This document shows, one piece after another, positions 21,342-39,364 of a stretch of 64,000 bases of DNA. A program made the translations under genes and the position numbers. How positions within the stretch are numbered: position 1 is the first letter of the stretch; every line of letters starts with the position of its first letter. A model generated the notes under the pieces. The model searched no databases. It was not told the origin of the DNA and saw only the letters and a list, made by a program, of their open reading frames with translations. The stretch lies in contig SVTJ01000011.1 of NCBI GenBank assembly GCA_015063845.1, forward strand, positions 3,359-67,358, written 5' to 3'. Source of the DNA: Oscillospiraceae bacterium (GTDB lineage Bacteria; Bacillota; Clostridia; Oscillospirales; CAG-272).

Positions 21342-21710
21342 GGGCCCGTAAAGGTTTCGACGGGGATTTTGAGGTATGATAAGCGGGTAGAGCCGGGCAA
21401 TCTCTATAAAGGCCCAAATTAAAAATAAACGCTAACAATAGAACTGTAGCAATGGCTGCCTAAGGGCAGTGCCGTGGCATAATGCCACCCGTTCCTCCGA
21501 GGAGTATCGCGGCCTCGGACTGAGCGTCAAGTAAGCGGTGAACGTGCATCGGTGTTTCGCCATTGAACCGATCACGCAAAAAATGGCTACCCAACGGAGC
21601 GGCTTGTCCGCTGACTGCTCCCGCGGGGAATTCTAATCAACGGAATGCACCCGGAGAAGGTCATATCAAGAGGTTTTCGGACAGGGGTTCGACTCCCCTC
21701 GGGTCCACCA
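21342..21710 (+). ncRNA. ssrA: tmRNA; proteolysis tag ANNRTVAMAA* encoded at 21431-21463
   Basis: gggcccgtaaaggtttcgacgggg ... ggacaggggttcgactcccctcgggtccacca; 7-bp acceptor stem; GCT AAC AAT AGA ACT GTA GCA ATG GCT GCC TAA. Confidence 0.96.
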
Positions 21711-23693: not shown

Positions 23694-23722
23694 ACAAAAA
23701 AGACACGCCGCGGCGTGTCTTT
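23694..23722 (+). terminator. Intrinsic terminator
   Basis: aaaagacacgccgcggcgtgtctttt. Confidence 0.85.
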
Positions 23723-23730
23723 TCTTTGTT

Positions 23731-24764: not shown

Positions 24765-25385
24765 TTATAAAGAAAGCAAGGAGTTAAGCATTTGTTTCGC
24801 TTTTTCGGGATCGTTCGAGTGAATGCCGTTTGCAACGTTCATTATATACAAAAGGGGCACCATATCGCAAAGTCTGGTATTAACGGCTTTTCCGTTTTCA
24901 TCAAAATTCGCTTGACCGTATATAACGTGCTCTACGTTACAGTCAAGGTGCTTCTCGGCGAACGAAAGAGCCGCAAAAACGGTGATGGGGAGATCCTTTG
25001 GACCGTAGGTTATATCAGCAACAACGGTGGAATTCGCAGGGATTTCAGCAACTAATTTGCCCATAAGCTCCTGATAAACTGACTTTTTCTCCAAAAAGTC
25101 GGTTTCTATCTCTTTATATTCAACGACGACATTCATGTTCTTGCATGCGTCTGCAAGCTCCGCCTTGAATACTTCGACTTTTTCTTTGCAGTGACTGTAT
25201 TCATCGTTCTTTGTGAGAAGAATTACCTTGAGCTCATCACCGTTTTTTAAGGTGCTTTTGAGATAAGCGTTGATAGGGTAGACCACCTCGGTCTCGGGCG
25301 TGTGTAACGAGCGTATCTCGGACACGTATTTACACTTGGGAGTGTCTTTTTTCATTGGAATATTGCAAATGATTGTTCTTTTCAT
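24765..25385 (-). CDS. CARF-like (TM1812/Csx1-type Rossmann) stand-alone protein
   Basis: VVADITYGPKDLPITVFAALSFAEKHLDCNVEHVIYGQANF...LCDMVPLLYIMNVANGI resembles CARF D-x-T-x-G core. Confidence 0.5.
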   Translation of the reverse strand: MKRTIICNIPMKKDTPKCKYVSEIRSLHTPETEVVYPINAYLKSTLKNGDELKVILLTKNDEYSHCKEKVEVFKAELADACKNMNVVVEYKEIETDFLEKKSVYQELMGKLVAEIPANSTVVADITYGPKDLPITVFAALSFAEKHLDCNVEHVIYGQANFDENGKAVNTRLCDMVPLLYIMNVANGIHSNDPEKAKQMLNSLLSL

Positions 25386-25438: not shown

Positions 25439-26002
25439 TTACAAGTCGTAATTGTCAGTAGTTTCGATTTTTGTCTGCTCATCTTCTTTATCTTTCCCGA
25501 ATATGAGTTTTCTTACCGAGATAATCTCGCCGTTCATATAAATCGAAAAATCACCCACGGGATTGTCAAACTCGGGATATACCTCATATGCCATATTAAA
25601 ATCTCTTGGAACATGCTTGCCCAAAATATAGGCATAGGCAAGCAGCTCTTTTCCTTTATCAGACGTCTTTAAATATGCCGTTGCCTTATTAATATCCTTT
25701 TTGGTACCATAACCTGTCAAATAGCAATATCCAAGATACAGCGGTTCGCTTGACTTTTGAATATTTGCAAATACGATCTTCTTTTTATTTAGAGAGATAC
25801 GCGGTGCGTTTGCCTCGCACAACATGTTTGACTCAATTACTTTTAAGGCAAGTTTCGCATCGGTAATCGTGTAATTGTAATCGTGTGTTGCAACATTTCT
25901 AAAAACGATATCTTTATCAAGATTGCCACTGCTAAGCATTTTACTTCTATCCGAATCGGATACGTCTTCGAACTTTATCAATTGGTTAAGATCATATTTC
26001 AT
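25439..26002 (-). CDS. Small Sel1-like repeat protein
   Basis: PLYLGYCYLTGYGTKKDINKATAYLKTSDKGKELLAYAYILG. Confidence 0.5.
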   Translation of the reverse strand: MKYDLNQLIKFEDVSDSDRSKMLSSGNLDKDIVFRNVATHDYNYTITDAKLALKVIESNMLCEANAPRISLNKKKIVFANIQKSSEPLYLGYCYLTGYGTKKDINKATAYLKTSDKGKELLAYAYILGKHVPRDFNMAYEVYPEFDNPVGDFSIYMNGEIISVRKLIFGKDKEDEQTKIETTDNYDL

Positions 26003-26036: not shown

Positions 26037-26065
26037 ATTGTATCATTAATTTTTATATTTGTCAA
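26037..26065 (-). promoter_or_regulatory. Consensus sigma-A promoter for 26002->23731 operon
   Basis: Minus strand TTGACA-N17-TACAAT. Confidence 0.75.
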
Positions 26066-27774: not shown

Positions 27775-28596
27775 CTATCTGTAAAATCTTGATCTTGTAC
27801 TACCTTTCAATATCATCGCCAATGACACATCGTCGCCGATGCCGCTACGCAAACCGAGGTCACATACAAAATTTTTGACCTCATTTGTTTTTCCGTCAAG
27901 CACGCGTCGGACGACGGGGCGTACAAAGGAACGCTTGAAATTCTCTGTGCTCTGGTACGGACCGAGTATGCCATCGGTGCATATGAGAACGCCGTCGAGC
28001 GTTCGCATATCGAAGATACGTGCGTTCATATGCTCAAAGGCTTTCTCACCGCAGAGCGAATAGGTCACGTTCGCCACGGGTTCGTCCTCGTCCTCGGGGA
28101 AGGCGGGGTAGAGCTCTCCGTTTTTGACGAGAAAGCAACCGCCGTCGCCAAGTCCAACGCAAATAAGACGATTGCCGAAAAGCATCGCACCGCTCAGCGT
28201 CGTTCCGTACGCCTTGGCGGGATTTTGCTTGATGGACTTGATCTGTGTATAGGTTAGGTGAGCCACCTCGCTTTTGCGGATAGGGTGCTCGGCTAGATCC
28301 TCGCGCACAAGCCGATTCCACTCGCAGAGGATGTTGAGCTTGAGATTATGCTCTATATCCTCTGCGGTGTATTTGCGAAATGAAAGCGACTCGGTAGCAA
28401 GCATAGCGCGGAGAATGGCGAGAGAGGCGAACTTGCTCCCCTTATGAGAGCGGATATATACCTCGCCACCGTGTCCGTCGCAGGCGGTGACGATGTTGCG
28501 CTCTCCGTCGGAGTAGGATGCGCTGAAGTCCTGACACGGCTTGCCCGACTTTATATGCGAGTAGCCTATGGATGTAACGTTAAATTGTTCTATCAT
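27775..28596 (-). CDS. PP2C-family Ser/Thr phosphatase
   Basis: IGYSHIKSGKPCQDFSASYSDGERNIVTACDGHGGEVYIRSHKGSKFAS; LICVGLGDGGCFLVKNGEL; GVLICTDGILG. Confidence 0.9.
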   Translation of the reverse strand: MIEQFNVTSIGYSHIKSGKPCQDFSASYSDGERNIVTACDGHGGEVYIRSHKGSKFASLAILRAMLATESLSFRKYTAEDIEHNLKLNILCEWNRLVREDLAEHPIRKSEVAHLTYTQIKSIKQNPAKAYGTTLSGAMLFGNRLICVGLGDGGCFLVKNGELYPAFPEDEDEPVANVTYSLCGEKAFEHMNARIFDMRTLDGVLICTDGILGPYQSTENFKRSFVRPVVRRVLDGKTNEVKNFVCDLGLRSGIGDDVSLAMILKGSTRSRFYR

Positions 28597-28597
28597 A

Positions 28598-29380
28598 TCA
28601 CCACTCCCAATCGTCGATCTCGTCAAGGGTAACTTTTACCTGTTGCTTGACTATTATGTGTGCGCGCTGCTTGGATGCTTGCTTTCCGCCCCTCATCATC
28701 TGTGCCTTTGACGTGTTATTAGTCCTCACCGCCGAGCTTTGAGACTTGACCTTCGAGGCGGTCAGCACGATGACTTGGATTATCTTTGCGAGCGTAGACG
28801 CATCAAGGCATTTGATGACGCAATCCTTGTCGTCGGTAAACTCAGTCAGTACCTGCATAGTCCTTTCATCATCCAAAGCAATGGCAATGCCGTATCTGAG
28901 AGAAGCGCGAAACCACGGCAGCTTTTTGAGTTCCTTTAGTTGACTTTCAGTCGGTTTTGTGGGATGCCCGTCTGTAAGCAGAAGAACGATGGGCGCGATA
29001 CCGCCGAAATCGGGCATCATACCGCCGTTTGACTCTTTATGCAGAACGGGTGCAAGTTCTTCATAGGCACAGTGGAGATTTGAGTATCCGATGGCTTTGA
29101 GCTTGGGTGGCATCATATCGTTTACATTTACGCCCTTGTATCCGTCGAGAAATTCAGCACGGTTAGCAAAGGTCATAATGGAGAGGTAAAAATCCACGTT
29201 TGTGTTCTCGCTTTGCAGGTCAATAAGGTATTTGTGGATGTCGGCGATCGCCGTGTTGACCTGTCCGATCCTTTCGCCCTGCATAGAGCGAGAGGTATCG
29301 ACGATGAGTATGACGTGGAGCTTTTGCTTGGCGATGCCGTCTGCGGTCATAGCCGCAAGCACCTTGCTATCACCACTCAA
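28598..29380 (-). CDS. TerY-like von Willebrand factor A protein (copy 1)
   Basis: MIDAS VILIVDTSRSMQGERIGQVNTAI; ends DDWEW*; TTG start with SD inside the upstream gene. Confidence 0.85.
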   Translation of the reverse strand: MSGDSKVLAAMTADGIAKQKLHVILIVDTSRSMQGERIGQVNTAIADIHKYLIDLQSENTNVDFYLSIMTFANRAEFLDGYKGVNVNDMMPPKLKAIGYSNLHCAYEELAPVLHKESNGGMMPDFGGIAPIVLLLTDGHPTKPTESQLKELKKLPWFRASLRYGIAIALDDERTMQVLTEFTDDKDCVIKCLDASTLAKIIQVIVLTASKVKSQSSAVRTNNTSKAQMMRGGKQASKQRAHIIVKQQVKVTLDEIDDWEW

Positions 29381-30107
29381 CGTCAGCCACCTCCTCAAGA
29401 TTCTTCGCTATCTCTTCCTGTGCTATTTGATTGTTGTTGCCTACACCACTGCCGATAGATGCAGAACTTGACTTGACCTTCGATGCCGTGATTGCGATGA
29501 CCTTGATGACACGGCGCAGTGCCTCGGCGGAATAGACGGTAAGTACAGTTTCGGGATTGCCCGTGAACTTTGTCAACACGTCTCTCGCTTCATCTGTGTT
29601 GACCTGAATGGCGATGGCGTATTTCAGCGCTACCTTGAACCAACCCTTTTTCTTTAGGTCGGAGAGGTGGTTTTCCCAATCATAGCTTGTGGGCATACCG
29701 TCGGTCATAAATATGATGATGGGCGCGACGCCGCCAAGATCGGGCATCTTGCCGCCGTTCTCTCGCTTGCAGAGGAAACGCGAAAGCTCGTCGCAGGCGG
29801 CGGAGAGGTTGGTTGCTCCTTCTGTGCCGATGTCGTGCCACTTGAATTCCTCAATGGTCTTGGGTTCGGGATAGATCCACTTGGCGTCGTCCGAAAAGGT
29901 CATTGCCGAGATCTTGATGGTAGCGTCGCCCGTGTCATCCTGAATGTCGGGCATAATGCTCATGATGTCGCGGATAGCATTGTTGACCGCTCCGATCTTC
30001 TCGCCCTGCATACTGCCTGAATTGTCGATGACAAATATGACGTTGAGTTCCTGTCTGGCGATCCCCTCGCCAAGGTCAAATCTTTCGTTCATTCTTTCAG
30101 TGCTCAT
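29370..30107 (-). CDS. TerY-like von Willebrand factor A protein (copy 2)
   Basis: MIDAS VIFVIDNSGSMQGEKIGAVNNAI; IIIFMTDGMPTS; ends ADVEW*; TAATG overlap with kinase gene. Confidence 0.9.
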   Translation of the reverse strand: MSTERMNERFDLGEGIARQELNVIFVIDNSGSMQGEKIGAVNNAIRDIMSIMPDIQDDTGDATIKISAMTFSDDAKWIYPEPKTIEEFKWHDIGTEGATNLSAACDELSRFLCKRENGGKMPDLGGVAPIIIFMTDGMPTSYDWENHLSDLKKKGWFKVALKYAIAIQVNTDEARDVLTKFTGNPETVLTVYSAEALRRVIKVIAITASKVKSSSASIGSGVGNNNQIAQEEIAKNLEEVADVEW

Positions 30108-31417
30108 TATTTTATTTCTCCTATCGTATTTTCATTAAATTTGATTTTGAGTCCTTTGACGATCGGTATCACTCCGCCTGCGGCGACCGTCTTTTCGTTA
30201 CCGTTTGCGTCCTTGATGAGAATATCTCCGCCGACTCTGACGCGAAGTCCCCACAGAGCGGGATTTTTCTTGTTGGCGATGACCTCGCCCACCACTTCGT
30301 TGTAAGAAGAGGAATATTTGTCGAGATGATGACTATAAAGCTTTTTGCCGGGTTCAAGTACGATGCGGTTCTTGCCAACCTGCAACACGCAGTATTCACC
30401 TTGGTTCTTTGTCTTGCAGAGCGGACAGGTATCCAGCGTGCTTCGCTCGGAAAGTCCATAAGCGTATTGATATCCGCAAGAGCAAGATATTAGCTCGTCG
30501 CGGTAGCGAGTGAGCAAGCGCAGCCATTCAAGCTCGGTGGTGCGCTCGTTCTCTCTGTCAGAAAGTCCGTCCACAAAGGTGCGATGAAAAGCTTCCTTGA
30601 TGTAGATCGGCATCAGAGGCCAACGGCGAAGCACACCCGCGTGATAGCCGCGAATGGGGCGGTTGGATTTGTCGGTCTTGTGGTAGATGAATACGGGCTT
30701 CTCTCCGTACATCTCGTACTCTGCTTGTTCGTCCATAATGGGGTAATCCTTAAGTCGCTCACCCTCATAAGGATTGCCGAGGCAGAGTGCCATAAAGAGA
30801 ATGACGGCAAGAGAGAAGCGGTCGGAGTGGACGTCGGGCATCTGTCGCTCTTTCGTACGAGGATCGACGTCTCCGCGGACGATCTCGGGCGCCATATAGC
30901 GCATCTTGCCTAAGATTCCGAGATTCTTTTTGTCGGCGGTTACGTTGTCATTGTCACAAATGAGCAAGTCGCCCGTCTCTGTGTCAAGGAAGAAGCTACC
31001 GTCGTTAAGGTCTTGGTAGGAATATCCTTTCTCGTGGAGCTTCTTGAAGGATAGGCAAAGCTCGATACACCACCGCAAAAGCGTTGCTTGGTCGCGACAC
31101 TTGTTCTTGCCCGTGAGGTAGGACACAAAGGACACATAGTTCTTCGGTCGCAGATCCATCACGTAGCCGAAGCTGTCCTCTGTCTGCACGAGAGTGCGAG
31201 GCCATAGAAAAGTTTGCGATGGACTTCCTTTCTCAATGTTGTTTCGCAGGTTGTAGCAAAAGTCGGGATCGGGTATATCTTTGTACACTTTAAGCGCATA
31301 TGTATGATCCTCGCACTCGGCAAGATAGACCTCACCCTGTCCGCCCTCGCCGAGAAGGTCAAGAATGCGGTATTCCTTGCCTCCCGACGACACGATCTGA
31401 TTTTTCTTGAATTTCAT
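30107..31417 (-). CDS. Atypical Ser/Thr protein kinase with zinc-ribbon-like and FHA-like C-terminus
   Basis: DLLGEGGQGEVYLAECEDHTYALKVY; catalytic loop GYSYQDLNDGSFFLD; CDNDNV in place of DFG; MRYMAPEIV; CSCGYQYAYGLSERSTLDTCPLCK. Confidence 0.85.
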   Translation of the reverse strand: MKFKKNQIVSSGGKEYRILDLLGEGGQGEVYLAECEDHTYALKVYKDIPDPDFCYNLRNNIEKGSPSQTFLWPRTLVQTEDSFGYVMDLRPKNYVSFVSYLTGKNKCRDQATLLRWCIELCLSFKKLHEKGYSYQDLNDGSFFLDTETGDLLICDNDNVTADKKNLGILGKMRYMAPEIVRGDVDPRTKERQMPDVHSDRFSLAVILFMALCLGNPYEGERLKDYPIMDEQAEYEMYGEKPVFIYHKTDKSNRPIRGYHAGVLRRWPLMPIYIKEAFHRTFVDGLSDRENERTTELEWLRLLTRYRDELISCSCGYQYAYGLSERSTLDTCPLCKTKNQGEYCVLQVGKNRIVLEPGKKLYSHHLDKYSSSYNEVVGEVIANKKNPALWGLRVRVGGDILIKDANGNEKTVAAGGVIPIVKGLKIKFNENTIGEIK

Positions 31418-31426
31418 AACGCCTCC

Positions 31427-31990
31427 TTATTCATAAATTACGATGCGATCCTTCGTCATCGTGTTCATTATAACAACGGGGAAGTGCTTGGTGCGGCGCA
31501 TTTTCTCAAGTGTGCGGAAGGTCTGGGCAATGCGCTCTACGGGCGGCAGATCCTTATAATACATCATCGCACCGTAAGCGGTATCATCACCGTTTCCGCA
31601 AACATCAAAATCCTCTATCTCACAGCAAGTAAACGAGGGACGGATCACGAATGCCTTTTTTTCCTTTGCTATCACAAGTGTCTGCCAGCTTTCTTTTCCG
31701 TCCATCATATCGCATTCTTCAAATATCTGCTTGAGCTTGGGAACTGTATTTAAGATCAGATTTTGTTGTGTCAGCGGATCAGAGAGCCCCAGCTGCTTAT
31801 GATAGCGGATACGGTCAACATCTATTCCACGGGGGTGTACGGATGACATAAGACAGTTCTGTACGTTTGTAACGTGCCAGAGATTTAGGTTATCCTCGTG
31901 GATCAGATCATCGTTGTGTGCATTGATCATAACCCCGGCAGCTCCAACTGCCAACCATACTGATTTTTTGTCCTTTATTGTTATTATCAT
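31427..31990 (-). CDS. Proteasome/HslV-like Ntn-hydrolase paralog, probably inactive
   Basis: MIITIKDKKSVWLAVGAAGVMINAHNDD aligns with the next gene but lacks Ser1 and Asp17. Confidence 0.5.
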   Translation of the reverse strand: MIITIKDKKSVWLAVGAAGVMINAHNDDLIHEDNLNLWHVTNVQNCLMSSVHPRGIDVDRIRYHKQLGLSDPLTQQNLILNTVPKLKQIFEECDMMDGKESWQTLVIAKEKKAFVIRPSFTCCEIEDFDVCGNGDDTAYGAMMYYKDLPPVERIAQTFRTLEKMRRTKHFPVVIMNTMTKDRIVIYE

Positions 31991-32001
31991 AGTTTTTCTC
32001 C

Positions 32002-32598
32002 TTACTCTGCAATTTTGTATTTAAGGTCAACAGAATCGATAAGATAATACGGTCCGCTGACAGACATCGCACGCGAGGCAGAGATACGAAGCATATCTGT
32101 CAGGCGTTCTTCGATGTCCTGCTTGTCCCGAATATCCGCCGCATCCAACTCACAAAGTCCGGCGTGTGTCATGGATCCGCCCGAACCGATTTCGGCAAAG
32201 TGATCGTGAACTGTTACGTCGAAAACACTGTCGATCTGAAACAGCTTATCTTTGTATGCGAGCAGATAACTCTCCTCCATCTTTGCAGGCACATCGTCTT
32301 CCTTCACTCGCATATCATTCTCACGATAGAGCTGAAAGAGCTTGGGGATGATATTCTGAACGATGTACTTCTTGGTCATTTCATCGTCCTTGGGAACAGT
32401 AAAAATTTCTGGATGCGCGCAAACGATCTGGCTGTTATGTAATGTGCCTACGTGTCCCAAAAGGATTCCGTTTTCAAATCGCGTGATCTTGCGACTTTTT
32501 TCCCCTAAATAGGTCTTCTTTATATCTCCGCAGGAGGTCTGCGTGTCCGCCGCCATATAGATACGGTCATTTTTCTTGATTGCGATTACTACACTCAT
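32002..32598 (-). CDS. Proteasome beta/HslV-like Ntn hydrolase
   Basis: MSVVIAIKKNDRIYMAADTQTSCGDIKKTYLGEKSRKITRFENGILLGHVG; ungapped alignment to HslV [24 protein letters not shown] puts Ser1/Asp17/Lys33 in register. Confidence 0.7.
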   Translation of the reverse strand: MSVVIAIKKNDRIYMAADTQTSCGDIKKTYLGEKSRKITRFENGILLGHVGTLHNSQIVCAHPEIFTVPKDDEMTKKYIVQNIIPKLFQLYRENDMRVKEDDVPAKMEESYLLAYKDKLFQIDSVFDVTVHDHFAEIGSGGSMTHAGLCELDAADIRDKQDIEERLTDMLRISASRAMSVSGPYYLIDSVDLKYKIAE

Positions 32599-33375: not shown

Positions 33376-33407
33376 TATATATTGATTCGAAAATCTCAAA
33401 ACTTAAC
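33376..33407 (-). promoter_or_regulatory. Island promoter-like site P1
   Basis: Minus strand GTTAAGTTTT-N13-CAATATATA upstream of DUF1294 gene. Confidence 0.65.
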
Positions 33408-33436
33408 ATTTTTAATGAAACTTTTTTGAAATATTT

Positions 33437-36162: not shown

Positions 36163-36194
36163 TATATATTGTTGTGGCAATGCCAAAACTTAAC
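36163..36194 (-). promoter_or_regulatory. Island promoter-like site P2
   Basis: Minus strand GTTAAGTTTT-N13-CAATATATA. Confidence 0.65.
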
Positions 36195-36379
36195 ATTTTT
36201 TGTTTGATTGTTCTGCGGACTTACTCCCCAAGATGATGTGTGAAAAGAAGGAGGAGGAAAAAGAAGGAGGAGGAAAAAGAAAGATAGAAACTTTTAAGGA
36301 GGTAAGGGGGATGCCGCAGAAGCTATATATTATATGGGATGTGAGAGTTGCTCTCGGGAGCCTCTCATATCCTCGTGTT

Positions 36380-36411
36380 TATATATTGCATCGATTTCTT
36401 GAAAAGTTAAC
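36380..36411 (-). promoter_or_regulatory. Island promoter-like site P3
   Basis: Minus strand GTTAACTTTT-N13-CAATATATA, just after the operon A terminator. Confidence 0.6.
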
Positions 36412-36478: not shown

Positions 36479-39364
36479 TTATTGTTGCAGAGTAGCATCT
36501 TTCATCTGTGGTACAGGTGCCTCCAAGCTCATTTGCATATATTCGGGGGATATCTTGTCCAAGAAGTTTCCGATTATGCGGTAAACCTTTATAAGAGCAT
36601 CGCCGCACACCTCTGCGTGTGTGTGGTTAACGACAGTTCCGTGGTCGGCGGAATTCCTGAAGCCCTTTATGTAGTTTACGTCCTCATCAAGGTCGATAAG
36701 ATAATTGATAACGCCCTCATCAAAGTCCATATTTTCAAAGGCGTCTTCACGGAATAACAGTCTTGCGTATTCCAGCATAACGGGATCTATCGTTTTGACT
36801 TGCGTGCCGTTTATTACCTTTCTGTGAGCTTTTTTGCTGAGAGCTTTTTTGTCATCAGAGCTATCAATACTCTTGTCGGAACCGCTTTGCAGCGGTATTT
36901 TCTCAACTCCTATCAAATGATAAAGTGAGCCGAGTGAGAAGCCAAAACCGTTTCTTTCGTCACAGTATACTATATTTCCGTGCTTTGGTTTAGAAAACTT
37001 TTCCTTGTTTCCAATCTTATAGGTTGTTGTTTTAGTTATCATGTTTGCCTGTCCCGTTCTGGAATAGCTTTCGATAAACTTAACGAACCTATGCTTTTCT
37101 GGGTCATACTCTGTGGGAGGGATCTTTTTGACGTCTTTCAAAAAGTGGACGTATCCTCTGCCGAAGAACTCACCAAGCTCTATCTCCAGCGCTTTTGAGA
37201 GTGTTGCTACAACGTTGGTGAAGTCCAGCATAGTGTATACTTCCTCACCGTGGCTGAGCGTATTTACGTAATAGAACATACCGCTGATAAGGCCTTGCTT
37301 TGCGTTTTGCTTGAGAAGCTTCCATTTATCCCCAAAGTCTTCTTCGAGGTCTTTCTCTATCTGAACGTAAAGATCCTTTCCGCGAATGCCCGATTGAATA
37401 AGCTTTTCAGCGTATTCGCGCATAGCGCCGCCGCTTCCTCTTTCACCAAGATCTCGCAATACCATATCATAGGCAAGTCGGCAGTTGAATCCGACATCAA
37501 GAGCCTTTTGATAGAGTTCCTTTGCTTTGGTCAAGCGTTGTGCCTTTGTACTTTCGTCGGTGATGACAAAATCAACGCCGCGGCAGTTATGGTAGCACTG
37601 AGCAAGATAGAAATAATGCTCTCCGTCATTATCGTCATCTACGCTCGACCAATATTCGAACGCTTTGCGATAGTCTTGCTCTATACTCTCGCCGTCGTAA
37701 TAAAGCTTGGCAAGGATGTTTTTTGCGTCGGTATTTCCAAGCGAACTTGCTTTTTCAAAAAGCTCAAGAGCCTTTTTGGTATCCTTCTCAACTCCTATGC
37801 CGTCAAGATACATAAATGCAAGCTTGATCATTCCAAACTCGGAGCCGTTGACGTTTGAGTTTGCTGCCTTTTCTAACCACTGGAAAGCAAGGGTTAGATC
37901 GACCTCTGTTCCGTATCCGTTTTTATAGCAGTTTCCGAGATTGCTGGCTCCAACGCAGTCACCAAGCTCCGCAGACTTTTTATATAAGTCGAATGCGCGG
38001 GACAGGTCTTTTTCAACGCCTTTTCCGTTCTCGTACATATATCCGAGATTGCACATGGAGGAGGGGTTGCCAAGCTCTACGGATTTTTCATACCATTCGA
38101 GAGCCTTTTCGGGTTCGTTCTTGGTAATAAGATATAGATTTGCCAAAGCGTGTATGTAGTCGGCATCTTGGGGATCTGTTTTTATTGCGTCAAGGTATAG
38201 CTTTTCGGCAAGCTCCAAGTCTTTTTCAATACCTGTTCCGTAGTGGTACATCTGAGCCAAAAAGTACATACCTGTTTCATTATTGCTTTGAGCGGATTTT
38301 TCATACCATTTTATTGCTTCGGTATAACTCTGCTCAACGCCTTCGCCAAGCTCATACATACAGCCAAGTTGCCACATACCGGTGGAGTCCTCTTGCTCGG
38401 CGGACGCTTTATATAATTCAACCGCTTTTTTGAGATCTGCTTCAACGCCTTTGCCATACTGATACATAAATCCGAGTCGCCACATACCGGTGGAGTCCTC
38501 TTGCTCGGCGGACGCTTTATATAATTCAACCGCTTTTTTGAGATCTACATCAACGCCTTCGCCATACTGATACATATATCCGAGTCGCCACATACCGGTG
38601 GAGTCCTCTTGCTGGGCGGACGCTTTATATAATTCAACCGCTTTTTTGGGATCTGCTTCAACGCCTTCGCCAAATTCATACATATAGCCAAGATGCCACA
38701 TACCGGTAGAGTTGCCTTGCTCGGCGGACGCTTTATATAATTCGACCGCTTTTTTGGGATCTACATCAACGCCTTCGCCGTCCTGATACATAGTACCAAG
38801 TCGCCATTGCCCTTCGGAGTTGCCTTGCTCGGCGGATTTTATAAAGCAGTCTATTGCTTTTTCGAGATTCATTTCAACGCCTTCGCCGGCAAAATACATA
38901 GCACCAAGTCGCCATTGCCCTTCGGAGTTGCCTTGCTCGGCAGCTGCCGTATACCATTTTACAGCTTCTTTAAAATTTTGCTCAACGTCGTTGCCGAAGT
39001 AATACCGCCAACCGAGTCGCCACTGTGCGTTGTGATACCCAAGTTCAGCGGATCTTTTCAGCCATTCAAAGTATATTTTGTCATCTTTTTCTACGAAAAA
39101 ACCGTTGGAATAGTAACAGGCAATTATATACGCCGCTTCGGCATCATCTGATTCTGCGAGAGAATAAATTGCATAAAAATGCTCTGCAAATATTTTTTCA
39201 GCCTTCTTGGTATCTTTTTCTACAAAATATCCATCTTGCAAAAATAGGGCTATACCGTAAAAACACTTTTCATCGCCCGATGCCGCGCCCTGCTCGTATA
39301 ATTTATATGCCTCGTCATATTTTTTGTTTTCGTGTAATTCTCTTGCTCTACTGTAATATGACAT
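36479..39364 (-). CDS. Large Sel1-repeat protein with C-terminal HEPN-like domain
   Basis: 961 aa; many SAEQGNSTGMWHLGYMYEFGEGVEADPKKAVELYKA repeats; C-term LSKALEIELGEFF...GFRNSADHGTVVNHTHAEVCGDALIKVYRII with RNxxxH. Confidence 0.75.
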   Translation of the reverse strand: MSYYSRARELHENKKYDEAYKLYEQGAASGDEKCFYGIALFLQDGYFVEKDTKKAEKIFAEHFYAIYSLAESDDAEAAYIIACYYSNGFFVEKDDKIYFEWLKRSAELGYHNAQWRLGWRYYFGNDVEQNFKEAVKWYTAAAEQGNSEGQWRLGAMYFAGEGVEMNLEKAIDCFIKSAEQGNSEGQWRLGTMYQDGEGVDVDPKKAVELYKASAEQGNSTGMWHLGYMYEFGEGVEADPKKAVELYKASAQQEDSTGMWRLGYMYQYGEGVDVDLKKAVELYKASAEQEDSTGMWRLGFMYQYGKGVEADLKKAVELYKASAEQEDSTGMWQLGCMYELGEGVEQSYTEAIKWYEKSAQSNNETGMYFLAQMYHYGTGIEKDLELAEKLYLDAIKTDPQDADYIHALANLYLITKNEPEKALEWYEKSVELGNPSSMCNLGYMYENGKGVEKDLSRAFDLYKKSAELGDCVGASNLGNCYKNGYGTEVDLTLAFQWLEKAANSNVNGSEFGMIKLAFMYLDGIGVEKDTKKALELFEKASSLGNTDAKNILAKLYYDGESIEQDYRKAFEYWSSVDDDNDGEHYFYLAQCYHNCRGVDFVITDESTKAQRLTKAKELYQKALDVGFNCRLAYDMVLRDLGERGSGGAMREYAEKLIQSGIRGKDLYVQIEKDLEEDFGDKWKLLKQNAKQGLISGMFYYVNTLSHGEEVYTMLDFTNVVATLSKALEIELGEFFGRGYVHFLKDVKKIPPTEYDPEKHRFVKFIESYSRTGQANMITKTTTYKIGNKEKFSKPKHGNIVYCDERNGFGFSLGSLYHLIGVEKIPLQSGSDKSIDSSDDKKALSKKAHRKVINGTQVKTIDPVMLEYARLLFREDAFENMDFDEGVINYLIDLDEDVNYIKGFRNSADHGTVVNHTHAEVCGDALIKVYRIIGNFLDKISPEYMQMSLEAPVPQMKDATLQQ
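38375..38806. repeat. 108-bp near-identical tandem repeats inside the Sel1 coding region
   Basis: cataccggtggagtcctcttgctcggcggacgctttatataattcaaccgctttttt starts at 38375, 38483, 38591, 38699. Confidence 0.95.

Follow-up and report, generated by a model that had tools for sequence, protein, structure and literature searches.

In the type III CRISPR-associated CalpL-CalpT-CalpS system, a SAVED-Lon protease sensor cuts a separate anti-sigma factor, and the sigma factor then starts a transcriptional response (PMC11229360). RtcR-like CARF regulators head CoCoNuT superoperons and are proposed to control the transcription of both CoCoNuT and TerY-P superoperons (Bell et al. 2024, PMC11090510). Csa3, a CARF-HTH protein, exerts a CARF-dependent transcriptional control of defence genes (PMC9704534), and in the RsiG-c-di-GMP-sigma WhiG system, a cyclic nucleotide gates a sigma factor via a partner protein (PMC8325347, PMC13232838). 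The nearest working analogues of the locus described here are CalpL-T-S, the RtcR-type regulators and Csa3, and none of them pairs a bare CARF protein with a sigma-70 factor.

In the window (the whole 64,000-nucleotide stretch of Oscillospiraceae DNA analysed here), a stand-alone CARF gene is followed by the gene of a divergent sigma-70-family factor, SIG (Table 1). We consider it probable that the two proteins form a sigma switch gated by a nucleotide messenger, with a dedicated promoter for defence islands. We infer that the CARF protein binds a ligand and contacts SIG, that SIG reads the promoter element, in which direction control runs, and that the island has an anti-phage role. As in CalpL-CalpT-CalpS, a cyclic-nucleotide sensor would control a sigma factor for transcriptional defence. 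Here, however, a bare CARF protein lies beside the sigma factor, no protease or anti-sigma factor was recognised next to the pair, and no Cas10 was found. RtcR heads superoperons, and likewise relatives of the pair head UPF1-helicase/TerY-P operons (loci L019, L022, L080). RtcR is one CARF-AAA-HTH protein activating sigma-54, whereas here the functions are split between CARF and a separate sigma-70-type factor, and the two have a promoter element of their own; a CARF-sigma pair is not mentioned in the passages of PMC11090510 that a search retrieved. Csa3 differs in that one CARF-HTH protein itself binds DNA, in association with type I-A CRISPR and without a sigma factor, while the RsiG-WhiG proteins are unrelated to CARF-SIG and developmental, not defensive. 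A sigma-70-family factor within a defence system is also known from the MZA system, and SIG is likewise such a factor beside defence-like genes, but no MZA genes were recognised here. To our knowledge, its sigma factor MzaA has no CARF partner. The novelty of the CARF-sigma-70 pair is provisional: searches of open papers gave no description of it.

Table 1. Features of the CARF-SIG island in the window
Feature	Position	Strand	Remarks
Terminator-like hairpin after SIG	23696..23725	-	
Divergent sigma-70-family factor, SIG, 340 aa	23731..24753	-	Assigned by family homology and the sigma identity of relatives
Stand-alone CARF protein, 206 aa (PADLOC CARF2--CARF / TM1812-like)	24765..25385	-	Proposed nucleotide sensor
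Small Sel1-repeat protein	25439..26002	-	Upstream of CARF-SIG
Housekeeping-type promoter-like site TTGACA-N17-TACAAT	26037..26065	-	11/12 positions, TG extension; before Sel1-CARF-SIG
Two Cys-containing paralogues, of which the second carries an FtsK-gamma-like winged helix	26087..27762	-	Cassette end
PP2C-type phosphatase	27775..28626	-	Pfam; completes the TerY-P triad
Second VWA domain protein	28598..29398	-	37% identical paralogue of the first VWA protein
VWA domain protein (TerY-like)	29370..30107	-	Pfam
TerY-P-type protein kinase with C-terminal Cys4 zinc-ribbon-like stretch	30107..31417	-	Pfam; Cys pattern from sequence
Protein without library match, read as proteasome-like	31427..31990	-	Read from sequence only; in the putatively driven cassette
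HslV/proteasome-beta-like Ntn-hydrolase	32002..32598	-	Sub-threshold HslV match, 5.9e-5; in the putatively driven cassette
Island-specific promoter-like site AAATGTTAAG-N17-CAATATATA	33376..33411	-	Before the Ntn-hydrolase, kinase, VWA x2 and PP2C cassette
Second copy of the island-specific promoter-like site	36163..36198	-	Before the 36.2-33.4 kb gene run
Third copy of the promoter-like site (GTTAACTTTTC-N13-AATATATA)	36380..36411	-	No clear ORF directly after

The initial annotation had pointed to a CARF-like frame at 24765-25385, resembling the TM1812/Csx1 type. An intact ORF lies exactly there on the minus strand, with an ATG start, an AAGGAG ribosome-binding site and both quoted peptides in its translation. 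The resemblance is borne out by profile searches, with matches to PADLOC CARF2--CARF (PDLC01820, E=9.7e-64), PADLOC Csx1 (E=2.1e-25) and, below its curated cut-off, NCBIfam TIGR02221 cas_TM1812 (E=9.7e-8); the sole Pfam match was Csa3_N (0.053). By profile score, the protein belongs to the CARF2--CARF family, whose PADLOC entry names only the CARF domain, without a partner or function. In an alignment of 19 relatives, the conserved loop reads DxTxGPK, followed by a Y-G pair, with D124, T126, G128, P129, K130, Y156 and G157 invariant. The AF2 model (pLDDT 90.8, pTM 0.87) has a Rossmann-like CARF fold that takes up the whole 206 aa, with no fused effector domain. The Foldseek comparison that the initial annotation had proposed gave CARF proteins as best matches, led by the CARF of Marinitoga Csx1-Crn2 (E=2e-6) and followed by Csm6, CARF ring nucleases including those of Sulfolobus, Can2, Cad1, Cami1 and Cam1. 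As judged by the profiles and the predicted fold, the product of this gene, which is single-copy in the genome, is a true, stand-alone CARF protein.

No CRISPR core genes were found to accompany it. The genome (1.88 Mb, 96.7% complete) gave no match to Cas1, to the Cas10 palm or to a SMODS CD-NTase, so that neither Cas10 nor a SMODS CD-NTase, the known makers of cyclic oligonucleotides searched for, was found. The locus therefore classifies neither as CBASS nor as a type III CRISPR ancillary effector, which would have Cas10/RAMP genes alongside. Nothing over the cut-off was found for the Cas10 palm in 11 of the 17 pair-bearing genomes; because the model gives a match even in the control genome, E. 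coli, positive results in other genomes may be too many, while negatives are safe within genome completeness. Repeats with a CRISPR-like spacing do occur in the window. They were rejected as a CRISPR array, as they lie inside a Sel1-repeat gene and are coding repeats, which agrees with the earlier reading of the window as free of CRISPR. The putative CARF-SIG switch is apparently CRISPR-independent. Because the protein is a true CARF, stands alone and lies in a locus without CRISPR, it is plausible, and a sensible inference, that it senses a nucleotide ligand.

The conserved partner of the CARF protein is the adjoining sigma-70-like factor, which the initial finding had not reported. The SIG gene lies only 11 nt downstream of the CARF gene. 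The SIG protein of the window on its own has no match in Pfam or NCBIfam. Among its relatives, 11 of 18 are matched by NCBIfam sigma models (best E-values 5.5e-6 for sigma70-ECF and 1.2e-7 for RpoS), and two by the model of MzaA, which is the sigma factor encoded by the anti-phage system MZA (best E 8.2e-5). The best PDB match of the family profile is a sigma factor as well (E=0.0019). Furthermore, the first 25 Foldseek matches of the AF2 model, which reached only pLDDT 76 and pTM 0.43, were all sigma factors with a co-linear domain order, at individual E-values of 0.02-0.8. These scores are weak singly, and it is their consistency that carries the claim: SIG belongs to a divergent sigma-70 family, the window's member being identified through its family and predicted fold order. 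It was previously unannotated as a sigma factor.

Relatives were found in 20 loci by an alignment query, while a single-protein query of the genome contigs returned no CARF relative, and none was found in viral contigs. They include Fusicatenibacter saccharivorans (L017) and Hornefia butyriciproducens (L018). SIG directly follows CARF in 17 of the 18 assessable loci of this set; L026 and L032 end at a contig edge and hence were not assessable, and L034 is without SIG. The same arrangement was found on a Treponema plasmid and on a human-gut contig, each an independent record (SIG E=5e-31 and 1.5e-104), so that with the window the count reaches 20 of 21 assessable loci. When about 390 genomes of the order were compared, the only ones with SIG were the four that have a close CARF, and all four had it (4/4). 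Neither the CARF frame nor its motif is disrupted in Clostridia or in a spirochaete plasmid. A record filed as "Bacteriophage sp." (MT835511.1, L080) carries the whole CARF-SIG-TerY-P-helicase superoperon, and could be a bacterial or mobile-element contig under a wrong label.

A family of about 100 aa (MKTTIYCKPTEKGVHSFYL...) is encoded upstream of CARF in nine of the 20 loci (L015, L016, L018, L019, L022, L026, L027, L032, L033) and in L080, often 60-75 bp past the promoter element described below. L021 has only a weak, shorter match, and the family is absent from the window. Distant CARF relatives (about 20-25% identity) occur in L011, L012 and L013, and the one in L012 sits among type III RAMP and Cas6 genes. 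In L011 and L012 the partner is a protein of about 325 aa that may be sigma-like. As the SIG profile showed no homology to these partners, the idea that the pair also occurs in type III CRISPR loci was dropped.

The genes next to the pair differ from locus to locus. A complete TerY-P triad follows it in L019, L021, L022 and L080, and in L016 a VWA and a PP2C gene are followed by the contig end. UPF1-like helicases are found in L015 and L019. In L019, L022 and L080, UPF1-type helicases and further proteins stand in an order resembling CoCoNuT superoperons, the helicases of L022 and L080 being called by size, place and similarity to L019 and not by Pfam. Behind the pair, other loci have a three-gene cassette for proteins of 97 aa, 961-962 aa (AAA+/M41, FtsH-like) and about 390 aa (L029-L031), or a run of VWA plus FtsK-type ATPase genes (L027), and L020, L023 and L024 have no cassette after it. 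Because ParA-like and replication-type ORFs, as read from sequence, lie upstream in L022 and L027, and a VirD4-like gene lies in L017, these three loci may be mobile elements. The pair thus stays constant from locus to locus, while the cassettes vary.

In the window, the promoter-like copies stand before two runs of genes, which together span 36.2 to 26.1 kb and have small membrane-type ORFs among them. They include a TerY-P triad, as VWA, PP2C phosphatase and zinc-ribbon-like kinase are encoded in one operon. No CoCoNuT genes (CnuB/McrB GTPase, CnuH UPF1-like helicase) were found among the scanned island proteins. The Ntn-hydrolase and its similar-looking neighbour (31427-32598, minus strand) are unusual company upstream of a TerY-P triad. 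The small Sel1-repeat gene is probably co-transcribed with CARF-SIG, and is not conserved with the pair in relatives. The unit that it forms with CARF-SIG has the housekeeping-like promoter in front and the terminator-like hairpin at its end. Together with the promoter-like copies before the cassette genes, this layout is the one expected of a constitutive sensor-regulator with an inducible cassette. A tmRNA gene, a common integration site, is located about 2 kb from the island (21342-21710, plus strand), with no integrase seen.

The three promoter-like copies share the form GTTAA[CG]TTTT[CG]-N13-AATATATA (33376-33407, 36163-36194 and 36380-36411, operon strand). At two mismatches or fewer, they are the only sites in the 1.88-Mb genome, all within the window, and the reversed control gave 0. 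About 180 bp without a clear ORF separate the third copy from the next one (36380-36200, minus strand), and this copy could drive a small RNA. A reduced element, TGTTAAG-N18-WATATA, was found at nine sites in the relatives' loci with at most one mismatch (shuffle mean 1.6, maximum 5). Each of the nine shares the strand of the operon and closely precedes a gene, and six lie 284-406 bp upstream of CARF. When the consensus was tightened to AANTGTTAAG-N17-CWATATA, the 20 genomes that carry this CARF gave 19 sites. Of these, 12 are at the islands, among them, in two genomes, second sites about 14 kb further downstream, inside CoCoNuT-like operons. In comparison, 146 other genomes from the family to which the window belongs, of which a single one is known to have the pair and essentially all others lack it, have about 0.15 sites per genome, none of them perfect.

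The window copies gave the first form of the element and the relatives served to refine it, which makes part of this evidence circular; held-out loci and whole-genome counts are the cleaner tests. A held-out PWM finds sites in L026, L027, L028, L032 and L033 (each p below 1/300), and in L080 the sole site above the threshold in 24.6 kb lies 71 bp before the first gene. No PWM site was found near the pair in L020, L023, L024, L025 and the Treponema plasmid. In L029-L031 a variant between SIG and the cassette was seen by eye only, the held-out p of these loci being about 0.2 (L029, L030) and 0.6 (L031). In two Ruminococcus genomes with the CARF-SIG pair alone, an orthologous promoter-like site is present elsewhere (L066 at about 1195, minus strand; L067 at 2888, plus strand). 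In most relatives, held-out ones included, the element thus stands ahead of the pair or of a cassette that goes with it. Judged from its distribution and layout, it is specific to CARF-SIG islands and promoter-like.

In the proposed switch, the pair is likely made constantly, from the housekeeping-type promoter. The CARF protein, probably a dimer like other CARFs, would bind a nucleotide signal that the cell produces when infected or stressed. This would alter its contact with SIG, in the simplest case by releasing a held sigma factor or by helping it to bind core RNA polymerase. Active SIG would then bring RNA polymerase to the dedicated promoter AAANTGTTAAG-N17-C-WATATA and turn on the effector cassettes, which in the window would be the 36.2-26.1 kb run including the TerY-P kinase, VWA and phosphatase proteins and the proteasome-like hydrolase.

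Ring nucleases are known among small CARF proteins, and the Sulfolobus enzymes among the structural matches, together with the invariance of T126 and K130, would fit a CARF protein that clears the nucleotide signal as a ring nuclease or ligand sink, while the sigma factor controls the island separately and without contact. The usual substrate, however, seems to be missing, because no Cas10 or SMODS was found in this genome and 11 of the 17 pair-bearing genomes have no Cas10 palm match over the cut-off. Moreover, 20 of 21 loci keep the fixed order of CARF then SIG, as would be expected if the two act together, and we regard a separate clearing role as unlikely. The same constancy bears on the question whether the gene is left over from CRISPR, as a type III ancillary CARF without a current role whose cas genes have been lost. 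RefSeq does name a relative "TM1812 family CRISPR-associated protein", and the distant relatives (about 20-25% identity) beside the type III RAMP/Cas6 genes of L012 would fit such an origin. A mere leftover is nevertheless very improbable, given a frame and motif intact from Clostridia to a spirochaete plasmid, and a pair kept together while its neighbours vary.

The promoter-like element could also be read by another sigma factor or be an operator for another regulator, with SIG acting elsewhere. The clustering of sites at CARF-SIG islands in several families argues against this, as do their rarity and the lack of any perfect site in the 146 same-family genomes (one known pair carrier), and a -35/-10 layout with a near-constant spacer, which is of the sigma promoter type. 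Given that SIG is a putative reader of the element, and that several pair-bearing loci have no site nearby, this alternative keeps some weight, yet appears improbable. A further suggestion of the initial annotation, that the CARF protein is coupled to a HEPN-like protein, did not hold up. The coupling of CARF to HEPN is the commonest CARF architecture, and the candidate, a 961-aa protein with 13 Sel1 repeats (36479-39364, minus strand), has an RNSADH motif (RxxxxH, HEPN-like) near its C-terminus. Nevertheless, its gene lies 11 kb from the CARF gene and upstream of the promoter-like sites, where they would not drive it, and relatives showed no recognisable counterpart close to the pair. Activation of this protein by a nucleotide-sensing CARF therefore has only a very slim chance of being correct.

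Returning to the CARF-SIG switch, a broader reading, to which we give an even chance, is that of a portable, CRISPR-independent immune switch. The stand-alone CARF protein would sense a signal not made by Cas10, for example a messenger that some unknown synthase makes, or RNA ends with a cyclic phosphate. It would directly gate the sigma-70 factor, and the private promoter of that factor would control interchangeable defence cassettes (TerY-P, CoCoNuT-like operons, the FtsH-like protease) on mobile islands, in gut Clostridia and beyond. If true, this would be a direct switch from a nucleotide messenger to a sigma factor in bacterial immunity outside CRISPR, and would explain the role of at least some orphan CARF proteins. 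The promoters, with their defined sequence, would offer a ready reporter for the signal, the trigger and the regulon. Furthermore, the promoter element would mark the effector cassettes, and so provide a rule for finding them.
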